A DNA stretch of 64,000 nt from the NCBI RefSeq assembly GCF_003258945.1, contig NZ_QLIX01000003.1, positions 186,001-250,000 of the forward strand. Direction: 5' to 3'. Origin of the DNA: Roseicella frigidaeris (GTDB lineage: Bacteria; Pseudomonadota; Alphaproteobacteria; Acetobacterales; Acetobacteraceae). Position numbers and translations under genes: made by a program. Under the pieces are notes generated by a model. The model was not told the DNA's origin, searched no databases, and was given only the letters and a program-made list of their open reading frames with translations. Of this stretch, positions 18,198 to 29,908 are shown piece by piece; the stretch's first letter is position 1, and each line of letters starts with the position of its first letter.

Positions 18198-18863
18198 ATG
18201 CGAGGGATGGGCGGAACGGCGGCCAGGGTGACCCTGCTGGGCATCGGGGTGCTGTTGGGCGGCTGCAGCTGGTTCGACAACGGCTCCGCCCGGGTCGCCG
18301 ACGGGATCGGCGATTTCGGCGGCAGGATCGGCATGCCCTGGGGCTCCTCGCATCCGAAGCCGCCCGAGGAGAGCACCACCATCGCCCGGCTCACCGGCGC
18401 GCCGACGGAGGTCACGCCGCTCCGCACTGAGGATGGCGATGTCTGGCCGGTGCCGGAGGCGCCGCGCTCGACCCTGGCCAATCCGGATGCGGCGATGCGG
18501 GGCATCCCGAATTACCGCCCCGGCGACTACGACCGCCCGCCGATCTCCGGCGAGCCGCGGCCGCTGCCGCCCAACCTGCGCAGCGGCGCCTCCTCGCCGC
18601 CGCCCCTGCCGCCGGTGCGGACCGAGCCGCAGCAGCAGAGCTTCGTGCCGCCGGCCGGCGACACCCGGCCGCCGGCGCGCCGCAACGATGGCCGGGTGAT
18701 CGTGACCCCGAACGGCAGCGCCGCGGTGACGACCGGCGGCACCGACCGCATCCAGGGCTATGTGCTGCCCGGCGGCGCCTCCGGCACCGCCATCAACGAC
18801 GGCGCCACGACGACGCTCGTCGGCCCCAACGGGCAGGTGCAGGTCGTGCCGAACCAGCGGTGA
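18198..18863 (+). CDS. Proline-rich putative lipoprotein of unknown function
   Basis: This 221-residue protein begins with a lipoprotein leader whose lipobox is LLGGCS, Cys near residue 23. The mature chain is rich in Pro, Gly, Arg and Ser, with no recognisable enzymatic domain, so it is probably an extended periplasmic lipoprotein. The second residue after Cys is Trp, not Asp, so no inner-membrane retention signal is evident. It is preceded by AGGAG and followed by moaD nine bases later, so it is probably co-transcribed with pgsA and moaDE. Function is unknown. Confidence 0.7.
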   Translation: MRGMGGTAARVTLLGIGVLLGGCSWFDNGSARVADGIGDFGGRIGMPWGSSHPKPPEESTTIARLTGAPTEVTPLRTEDGDVWPVPEAPRSTLANPDAAMRGIPNYRPGDYDRPPISGEPRPLPPNLRSGASSPPPLPPVRTEPQQQSFVPPAGDTRPPARRNDGRVIVTPNGSAAVTTGGTDRIQGYVLPGGASGTAINDGATTTLVGPNGQVQVVPNQR

Positions 18864-18871
18864 GGCCCGGC

Positions 18872-19123
18872 ATGCGGGTGCTGTATTTCGCCTGGGTGCG
18901 GCAGAAGGTCGGCGTCGCGGAGGAGGAGGTCTCCCCGCCGCCCGAGGTGCGGGACGTGGCCGGGCTGATCGCCTGGCTGGCAGCGCGCAGCCCCGGCCAT
19001 GCCGCGGCCTTCGCCCAGGCGCGGCAGGTCCGCGCCGCCATCGACCAGGAATTCGCCACCCCTGACGCCCCCCTCGCCGGCGCCACCGAGATCGCCTTCT
19101 TCCCCCCGGTGACCGGCGGATGA
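18872..19123 (+). CDS. moaD: Molybdopterin synthase small subunit MoaD
   Basis: MoaD is the ubiquitin-like sulfur carrier whose C-terminal thiocarboxylate donates sulfur to make molybdopterin. The 83-residue protein starts with VLYFAWVRQKVGVAEEEV and ends in the obligatory Gly-Gly (FFPPVTGG). A GTG at 18860 is an alternative start. Its stop overlaps the moaE start (ATGA), giving tight coupling with the large subunit. Confidence 0.93.
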   Translation: MRVLYFAWVRQKVGVAEEEVSPPPEVRDVAGLIAWLAARSPGHAAAFAQARQVRAAIDQEFATPDAPLAGATEIAFFPPVTGG

Positions 19124-19716
19124 CCGCGCCCGATGGTCGGAGCGGCGACGACCGCGAAGAGCTGAATCGGGCGCGTTGCGATACGCCCGATGGCCGGAGC
19201 GGCGACGGCCGTGGAGAGCTGAACCAGGGGCGCCGGGACACGCCCGGCGGCCGAGTCGTGCCGACCGTGCGGGTGCAGGAGGCGGCGTTCGACCTCGCCG
19301 CCGAGAGCGCGGCGCTCGCCGCCGGCCGGGTCGATATCGGCGCCCTGGCCAGCTTCGTCGGCCTCTGCCGCGCCGATGACGGCCTCGCCGCGCTGGTGCT
19401 GGAGCACTATCCCGGCATGACCGAGCGGGCGATCACGGGCATCGCCGAGCAGGCCTGCGCCCGCTGGCCGCTCACCGGCTGCACCGTCATCCACCGCCAT
19501 GGCCGGCTGGAGCCGGGGGCGCCGATCGTGCTGGTGCTCACCGCCTCCTCCCACCGCGCCGCGGCGCTCGAGAGCTGCGCCTTCCTGATCGACTGGCTGA
19601 AGACCCGGGCGCCCTTCTGGAAGCGCGAAGAATTCGCCGGCGGCGACGCGCGCTGGGTCGAGGCGAAGGCCGAGGACGATGCCGCCGCCGCCCGCTGGGA
19701 GCCGGGGCGCGCATGA
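19120..19716 (+). CDS. moaE: Molybdopterin synthase large subunit MoaE, with repeated N-terminal extension
   Basis: MoaE converts precursor Z (cPMP) to molybdopterin using thiocarboxylated MoaD. The core (from about residue 47) has VDIGALASFVGLCRADDG, LEHYPGMTERAI, VIHRHGRLEPG and the catalytic lysine region FWKREEF. The 198-residue product is longer than usual because of about 45 extra N-terminal residues made of an imperfect 19-residue tandem repeat (PDGRSGD...ELN...R.DT). A GTG near 19257 would give a conventional length, but the ATG overlapping the moaD stop favours the long form. The next gene overlaps its stop (ATGA). Confidence 0.9.
   Translation: MTAPDGRSGDDREELNRARCDTPDGRSGDGRGELNQGRRDTPGGRVVPTVRVQEAAFDLAAESAALAAGRVDIGALASFVGLCRADDGLAALVLEHYPGMTERAITGIAEQACARWPLTGCTVIHRHGRLEPGAPIVLVLTASSHRAAALESCAFLIDWLKTRAPFWKREEFAGGDARWVEAKAEDDAAAARWEPGRA
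19127..19260. repeat. 57-bp in-frame tandem repeat at the start of moaE
   Basis: Unit 1 (19127-19183) and unit 2 (19184-19240) begin CGCCCGATGG and are clearly homologous along all 57 bases; a third, partial unit starts at 19241. The unit is exactly 19 codons, so moaE stays in frame. Inside unit 1, CGCCCGAT and ATCGGGCG pair as an inverted repeat and GGTCG/CGACC pair within it, so each unit can fold. Confidence 0.85.
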
Positions 19717-29747: not shown

Positions 29748-29761
29748 CAGGGCTTCGCGGC

Positions 29762-29869
29762 GTCGCGCCGTAAGGCGCGCCTTGTGACGCGATGCCGTAA
29801 GGCGCGCCTTGTGACGCGATGCCGTAAGGCGCGCCTTGCGGCGCGACGCCGACAGGCGCGCCTCGCGGC
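29762..29869. repeat. 27-bp tandem repeat array, four units, each with AAGGCGCGCCTT-type palindrome
   Basis: Units start at 29762, 29789, 29816 and 29843. Units 1-3 are nearly identical and share CCGTAAGGCGCGCCTTG; unit 4 has drifted (AAGG to CAGG, CCTT to CCTC). Each unit holds a 12-bp perfect or near-perfect palindrome. The array lies between two convergent genes and has no open frame with support. Spacerless units exclude a CRISPR array. Confidence 0.9.
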
Positions 29870-29908
29870 GCGACCCGCGACGCCGCCGGGCGGCGCCGCG
29901 GGGTGGGC

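Follow-up and report, generated by a model that had tools for sequence, protein, structure and literature searches.

REPs are generally defined as short palindromic sequences that form a stem-loop, are present in many similar copies and lie mostly in extragenic positions near gene ends (PMC12306157, in the parts of that paper drawn on here). In E. coli, 446 of the 4,072 REPs in RepRanger's set (~11%) are found within 15 nt of a stop codon, and REPs at this distance are described in the same parts of the paper as stalling ribosomes and lowering translation (PMC12306157). Intragenic REP clusters encode 43-82 residues, and many REPs at the N-termini of ORFs are perhaps extragenic since translation starts downstream of them (PMC3733652). 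As far as the passages considered go, CGTC repeats are reported missing from Acetobacteraceae (PMC3733652), and an association of GTAG REPs with RAYT is described (PMC2817692). Rickettsia palindromic elements (RPEs) of ~150 bp are inserted 44 times in genes of R. conorii, according to a section of PMC10969869, and palindromic coding sequences for amphipathic repeats are described from Mollicutes and others in part of PMC2996958.

The 64,000-nt stretch of the Roseicella frigidaeris genome analysed here (contig NZ_QLIX01000003.1, positions 186,001-250,000; hereafter the window) carries on its forward strand a moaD gene of the ThiS/MoaD family at 18872..19123, with ATG 18872 taken as the start (Pfam PF02597, 5e-16, on 18860-19120), followed by a forward-strand moaE ORF of 198 aa at 19120..19716 (PF02391, 1.5e-30, residues 52-163). 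The two genes share an ATGA at 19120-19123, in which the moaD stop codon TGA (19121-19123) overlaps the ATG of moaE. Since the MoaE core starts at residue 48 according to the best solved match, or at residue 52 according to Pfam, 47 residues precede it as an N-terminal extension. The initial annotation had attributed about 45 extra residues to two and a bit copies of a 19-residue unit, encoded by a 57-bp in-frame tandem duplication at the start of moaE, and this description holds. A 57-nt tandem array of 2.2 copies lies on the forward strand at 19127..19253, in which the copies at 19127-19183 and 19184-19240 are 81% identical and a short remnant of a third copy reaches to 19253; its TRF score is 163, whereas first-order Markov shuffles of the window (n=40) scored 93 at best. 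The peptides encoded by the repeat unit are PDGRSGDDREELNRARCDT and PDGRSGDGRGELNQGRRDT. Beyond ATG 19120, the first in-frame ATG, GTG or TTG found by a start scan is a GTG at 19258..19260 (forward strand), directly followed by the conserved PTVRVQ; a start at this GTG would leave the array untranslated. An AlphaFold prediction of MoaE had a mean pLDDT of 43 and was left unused.

Further along MoaE, residues 79-90 (window 19354-19389), right after FVGLCR, are three fewer than in the best solved relatives, and this short loop appears to be common to the aligned relatives. Elsewhere in the window, about four copies of a 27-nt tandem repeat at 29757-29874, with a strongly self-complementary unit and GGCGCGCC cores, fold into a single long hairpin.

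The DNA of the moaE array was found to consist of a hairpin repeat element, an imperfect palindrome of ~50 nt with three stacked stems and the consensus GCCGCCCGATGACCGGAGCGCCGCAGGGCGCGGAGGTCTGAATCGGCCGGCC. Copy 1 (19125..19176, forward strand) begins 1 nt after the moaD TGA and folds alone as a three-tier hairpin with a 10-bp outer stem, while copy 2 (19184..19233, forward strand), in which the outer stem is more decayed, gives a weaker and partly altered form of the same hairpin. The proposals that the unit is self-complementary in parts and that it lies at the moaD/moaE overlap are thus borne out. The pairing is supported by covariation in two sets of sequences. In 30 elements from three other genus genomes (G001, G002 and G004), chosen without sequence from the window or from Roseicella sp. 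DB1501 and comprising 30 of the 32 non-moaE elements read at places matched by BLAST, 94.1% of cells are paired and nine pairs are changed on both sides, as compensatory stem changes; the covariation score is 0.265 against 0.109 after shuffling (0/500 shuffles), and pairing falls to 47% or less when the structure is slid by one column. The second set combines both window copies and the DB1501 unit with 24 of the 32 elements from L204-L223, which represent four other genera; these 24 elements were found by the model, so that the pairing of the set, 94.2%, leans towards the model. Its covariation score is 0.274 against 0.076 shuffled (0/500), while its number of further pair types lies within the shuffles (79/500). 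Overall, the element is an 18-pair hairpin with covariation support. A covariance model of 52 positions, R1, built from the 30-element set, recovers by cmsearch copy 1 of the window with 57.7 bits (E 1.6e-14), copy 2 with 35.8 bits (5.6e-8) and the DB1501 copy with 60.8 bits. A search of Rfam with six element-bearing loci gave only two matches, at E 0.94 and 0.99, both far below the gathering scores.

It had been suggested that the array is a palindromic element; hairpins of this kind are dispersed in Roseicella, Paracraurococcus and other genera of the same bacterial family; NCBI taxonomy places Roseicella in Roseomonadaceae. With the 127-nt array as query against five genus genomes, BLAST gave E values down to 2.6e-13 in G001 and to 1.3e-11 in G004, with some matches lying as neighbours ~60 nt apart; the DB1501 moaE unit was not among the listed matches of this search, in which the best match in the DB1501 genome was at 0.015. 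R1 at E<=0.01, with up to 150 candidates scored per genome, gave 12 matches in the window genome (G000), 19 in DB1501 (G003), 61 in G001, 68 in G002 and at least 145 in G004. Among 119 relatives, scanned with stricter filters and with up to 49 candidates scored per genome, 26 had matches at E<=0.001 and 93 had none; 25 of the 26 are inside the bacterial family and one outside (3e-4), and only one match was found in seven of the 26. The genome of the window itself is element-poor. A search of this genome for the unit, as the initial annotation had advised, found by BLAST only the unit itself at E<=0.001, whereas the covariance model found 13 matches at E<=0.05, with doubt attaching to the weakest. 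Uniqueness of the moaE array, suggested by the own-genome BLAST and by a protein search with the extension (second match at E 1.88), was overturned by the genus BLAST, both earlier searches being too insensitive. A plasmid or phage source was also considered and set aside; one three-unit array had no match at E<=0.001. Three model matches were taken as chance: L155, L159 and L157 (24.8 bits), the last of which had passed the automatic both-flanks coding test but lies in ordinary sequence, presumably that of a GMC-oxidoreductase.

Besides single elements there are direct tandem arrays, mostly with periods of 54-63 nt, and more than one copy is present in 54 of the 103 arrays sampled. A period divisible by three was dropped as a mark of coding arrays since 56 of the 75 periods in other arrays are multiples of three as well; therefore, the 57-nt period of the moaE array is not by itself evidence of coding. 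In the window genome and DB1501, most arrays represent a variant in which TAGAGC or CAGAGC is a frequent beginning. Variant elements of DB1501 (L144, L148, L154, L160) have a similar 3' tail, AA-rich and then, in some, AGAGCGCATTCCG-like, which suggests a longer composite repeat. Many G004 elements (among L124 and L164-L183) end in a common CCAACATACAAGG-like tail, which may belong to the mobile unit.

The placement of the elements was studied in 183 elements forming 103 arrays, from 101 element-bearing loci of 102 searched. These loci had been chosen as BLAST or top model matches and are a non-random sample; of the 30 loci of one model search, 22 entered the element classification, L141, L145, L149, L150, L152, L153 and L161 being dropped as repeats of the same arrays and L159 because it scored weakly. 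Codon usage, trained on the window, served to score the gene ends, with annotation unused. A codable stop of a same-strand upstream gene was present for 64 of the 103 arrays, and none was in range for the other 39. In 37 of the 64 arrays of this selected sample, exactly 1 nt separates the stop codon (36 TGA, 1 TAG) from the start of the element, or in 35 of 62 when the two moaD cases, of the window and DB1501, are left aside. A further 6/64 start at 0 nt, and 58/64 lie within -4 to 10 nt; of the G004 arrays, 22/26 are at 1 nt. At the other end of the element, convergent genes come within 10 nt in 3 of 18 cases. The other four scored arrays of the window genome and DB1501 stand at -3, 13, 36 and 67 nt, none at 1 nt, so that the one-base spacing characterises the main type and not the variant. 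Neighbouring arrays lie on one strand, apart from one opposite-strand pair, 679 nt apart, among the 101 loci.

The 80 moaE loci of relatives (the best 80 of 160), which were not chosen for their elements, contain eight matches at E<=0.01 in five loci. Five forward arrays were checked there and four had a codable stop: two are at 1 nt (one of them that of the DB1501 moaD), one is at -3, where the element itself gives the TAG, and one is at 85. The possibility that the TGA belongs to the element was rejected, since most arrays away from gene ends have no TGA in their 5' flank, and the moaD stop, which is also present in relatives without the element, is therefore native. The element at the moaD/moaE junction therefore stands where the main type often stands, a typical site that goes beyond the initial annotation, as does the entry into moaE by way of the ATGA overlap.

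Because the moaD TGA overlaps the moaE ATG, an element at 1 nt enters moaE in its forward frame 2. Among 169 elements of 46-56 nt (out of the 183), forward frame 2 is free of stops in 156, frame 1 in 68 and frame 3 in 43; each of the three reverse frames is open in 165-167 elements, and 77% of shuffled frames are open. The peptide read in forward frame 2 follows the pattern A-P-D-D-R-x-...-L-N-R-P. In-frame ORF cases were accepted in 11 of the 103 sampled arrays, both moaE cases counted, and in-frame copies were found in nine families of predicted proteins including MoaE. Hydantoinase B (L118) has four well-kept in-frame copies, amounting to ~82 extra residues relative to a solved relative. 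Hydantoinase A has an 18-residue tandem insert of two units in the window genome (L151) and three in DB1501 (L163) as judged by peptide, in which R1 finds one copy and two, respectively; its copy number therefore differs between the window species and DB1501 in parallel to moaE. In LeuRS an in-frame element is present in DB1501 (L162), and by eye the same site has a recognisable remnant in G002 and G004, a diverged insert in G001 and none in the window genome. TrmD of DB1501 (L136) has an in-frame element that is absent from TrmD of the window genome. The remaining cases are a GlmU-like protein with hexapeptide repeats (L185), which we take to be GlmU, a DUF2126 protein (L192), a family-2 glycosyltransferase (L119) and, on the reverse strand, a GNAT protein (L133). 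By reading of the sequences, forward frame 2 is used in seven of the nine families, MoaE included, while hydantoinase A uses frame 1 and GNAT the reverse strand.

The extension was then sought in relatives, taken as the best 80 of 160 moaE loci confirmed by a contig scan with an alignment of the window MoaE and four congeners. In 79 of these 80 (all but L091) MoaD ends in PP-x-[TSA]-GG followed by the stop; L091, where the moaD end was not found, was left out, so that DB1501 and 78 others are measurable. The extension is absent in 78 of the 79, the exception being Roseicella sp. DB1501 (L034), whose MoaE has an extension of 30 residues with one unit, against two units in the window; among the 80 loci the model finds a junction element only in L034. 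An extension of constant length across the family, which would have spoken against an inserted element, is thus not what is seen. The 78 relatives without it have 1-10 residues before the MoaE core, for example 4 in Roseicella aerolata, 5 in Paracraurococcus sp. LOR1-02 and 9 in P. ruber. From the moaD stop to the conserved MoaE core there are 2-26 nt in 77 relatives and 108 nt in Roseomonas sp. CECT 9278 (L068); the model finds no element in this 108-nt gap, and the insert there is something other than the hairpin element.

The history of the two copies can be approached through their divergence. Of the 52 element positions, 42 are identical between copies 1 and 2 of the window, 41 between copy 1 and the DB1501 copy, and 37 between copy 2 and the DB1501 copy. 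The pS between the window copies is 0.375, while that between the window and DB1501 is 0.117 for the moaE core, 0.207 for moaD and 0.222 for the aligned extension. Therefore, the pair may predate the split of the species, with one copy lost in DB1501, although the numbers are small. The dN/dS between the window and DB1501 is 0.24 for the moaE core and 0.25 for moaD; for the extension it is 1.0 in copy 1 (18 codons) and 1.14 in copy 2 (16 codons). Between copy 1 and copy 2 in the window it is 0.27, which taken alone would suggest some constraint on the peptide. The GC3 of the extension is 0.78 and that of the moaE core 0.95. On these comparisons the simplest reading would be an old pair in the common ancestor, of which one copy was lost in DB1501 and whose peptide has since been unconstrained; a duplication within the window lineage after the insertion is a possible alternative.

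It appears, with a probability of roughly 0.8, that a dispersed and often stop-adjacent hairpin repeat makes up the extension as a small array and that the peptide is most likely tolerated ballast, as it is hydrophilic and shows no constraint in the comparison of the window with DB1501. The initial reading, in which a palindromic element became inserted in frame where a conserved enzyme begins, is thereby supported. A proposed course of events can be described as follows. An ancestor of the window strain and DB1501 would have gained an element 1 nt after the moaD stop, presumably by whatever process puts the element at gene ends. The ATGA overlap would place it at codon 2-3 of moaE in forward frame 2, usually the one open forward frame, and a total insert length divisible by three would have kept moaE in frame. 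The copy number would then have changed to leave two in the window and one in DB1501. The DNA or RNA hairpin at gene ends would be what persists, and the moaE peptide would be its tolerated by-product; the hairpin may also act as a structure at the moaD end and in the moaD-moaE coupling zone, where a role in termination or translation is plausible by analogy. That the spread of the family is locked to stop codons, with the hairpin set by a placement mechanism at a fixed one-base distance on the sense strand, read in frame at ATGA overlaps through its one open forward frame, and seeding both N-terminal peptides and internal repeats of core enzymes, is a tentative idea with a low likelihood.

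It is conceivable, if rather unlikely, that MoaE starts at GTG 19258 and that the array separates moaD from moaE as an untranslated spacer. The GTG is in frame directly before PTVRVQ, the between-species dN/dS of 1.0 indicates no constraint on the extension at the protein level, and REPs at ORF N-termini are often perhaps extragenic (PMC3733652), all of which would suit such a start. However, the ATGA overlap is kept in the window and DB1501, and it is also found in several relatives without the element, in which the ATG is the obvious start; the frame is preserved in both species despite the unlike lengths; and copies lying mid-gene, as in TrmD, LeuRS and the hydantoinases, point to a tolerance of translated elements. 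Predicted Shine-Dalgarno pairing is also somewhat weaker at the GTG (-5.0 kcal/mol) than at the ATG (-7.3 kcal/mol). Translation of MoaE from ATG 19120 is favoured, to judge from the kept overlap, the kept frame and the better Shine-Dalgarno pairing.

If the array is translated, its peptide may still be thought of as a selected part of MoaE, such as a docking or regulatory tail. Its survival in two species and the dN/dS of 0.27 between the copies would agree with such a function, but it is absent in 78 of the 79 measurable relatives (among the best 80 of 160 loci), has another length in the only species that shares it, evolves at a between-species dN/dS of 1.0 (copy 1) and 1.14 (copy 2), and resembles in type the peptides found in unrelated enzymes, so that a functional tail is very improbable. 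Selection may instead act on the RNA: by analogy with known repeats, a stop-adjacent hairpin could tune termination and re-initiation and hence the MoaD:MoaE ratio. A sense-strand position 1 nt behind a stop codon is common among the elements, and E. coli REPs at 15 nt or less from a stop stall ribosomes and lower translation (PMC12306157, in the parts considered); yet copy 2 is without much of its outer stem and the array is missing from those 78 of the 79 measurable relatives, and such a device would seem unlikely as the reason for its being kept. A purely local slippage duplication of a unique junction stretch, with no repeat family behind it, agrees with the own-genome BLAST, in which a 161-nt stretch has no match but itself at E<=0.001, but it can hardly be reconciled with genus matches at 1e-13, with covariation in both element sets, or with the recovery of both copies and of more in the same genome by R1, a model from other genomes. 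The preferred reading, an array of a dispersed hairpin repeat with a tolerated peptide, makes the odd MoaE extension a testable case of short palindromic repeats creating new coding sequence. The family spans many genomes and its in-frame copies are at different stages, from the well-kept copies of hydantoinase B, through hydantoinase A and MoaE with their unequal copy numbers in two sister species, to the eroding remnants in LeuRS; annotation would benefit from its recognition, since such elements lengthen proteins, really or spuriously.

Compared with the known systems, the element is most likely a stop-anchored repeat of the REP/RPE type. Like the REPs of the general definition in the parts of PMC12306157 considered here, it is a palindromic stem-loop (18 pairs), is present in many similar copies (12 to at least 145 per genome in five genomes, with few in the window genome) and is mostly extragenic near gene ends, as judged in a selected sample with annotation unused; its model of 52 positions is longer than, for example, the 14-40 nt of E. 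coli REPs given there. Both the E. coli REPs and the hairpin element are placed near the stop of the gene upstream, but the former show a range of distances in those parts of the source (PMC12306157), while one exact spacing dominates in the latter (37/64 at 1 nt, selected sample). GTAG and CGTC REPs are likewise many-copy short palindromes near gene 3' ends, found as singles, dimers and groups (PMC3733652). They measure 20-40 bp and have an unpaired tag, whereas the hairpin element has ~50 nt and three stems and, by eye, no conserved tag, some CGTC overlapping the paired outer stem. BIMEs alternate in strand, whereas neighbouring hairpin elements lie on one strand (one opposite pair in 101 loci). 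GTAG REPs flank a RAYT, whereas the Y1 transposase domain PF01797 had no match at E<=0.001 in six of seven element-bearing genomes, and the two matches in the seventh, G004, have no element within ~1.5 kb; spread driven by a RAYT is therefore unsupported. An integron attC is also a palindrome after a stop, which starts with RYYYAAC and ends with GTTRRRY. By eye, no GTTRRRY is present at the 3' end of the element, and GCCCAAC in many G004 tails fits RYYYAAC but at the wrong end.

Rickettsia palindromic elements are similar in being scattered small palindromes that in many cases stand in frame in unrelated conserved genes of an alphaproteobacterium, as described in parts of PMC10969869 and in PMC3733652, and in-frame insertion into conserved genes is seen here in nine predicted protein families. 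Compared by description, and as far as those parts of PMC10969869 go, RPEs differ in their length of ~150 bp and in their intracellular Rickettsia hosts, while the hairpin element has a length of ~50 nt and occurs in direct tandem arrays, and its main type is often placed 1 nt after stops. The palindromic amphipathic repeat coding sequences are likewise palindromic DNA read as tandem peptide repeats, but they represent a repeat-protein pattern in the part of PMC2996958 considered, whereas the hairpin element is mainly extragenic and only occasionally in frame in enzymes. A literature search, which covered few subscription journals, found among the papers listed no palindromic repeat family described from Roseomonas, Roseicella, Paracraurococcus or Acetobacteraceae. 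Overall, the kind of element is known, while the family, its three-stem form without a GTAG/CGTC tag and its one-base spacing from the stop appear to be new within the literature searched. This spacing is more exact than the near-stop placement of REPs in the literature passages considered, and it raises the question of what targets or selects it.
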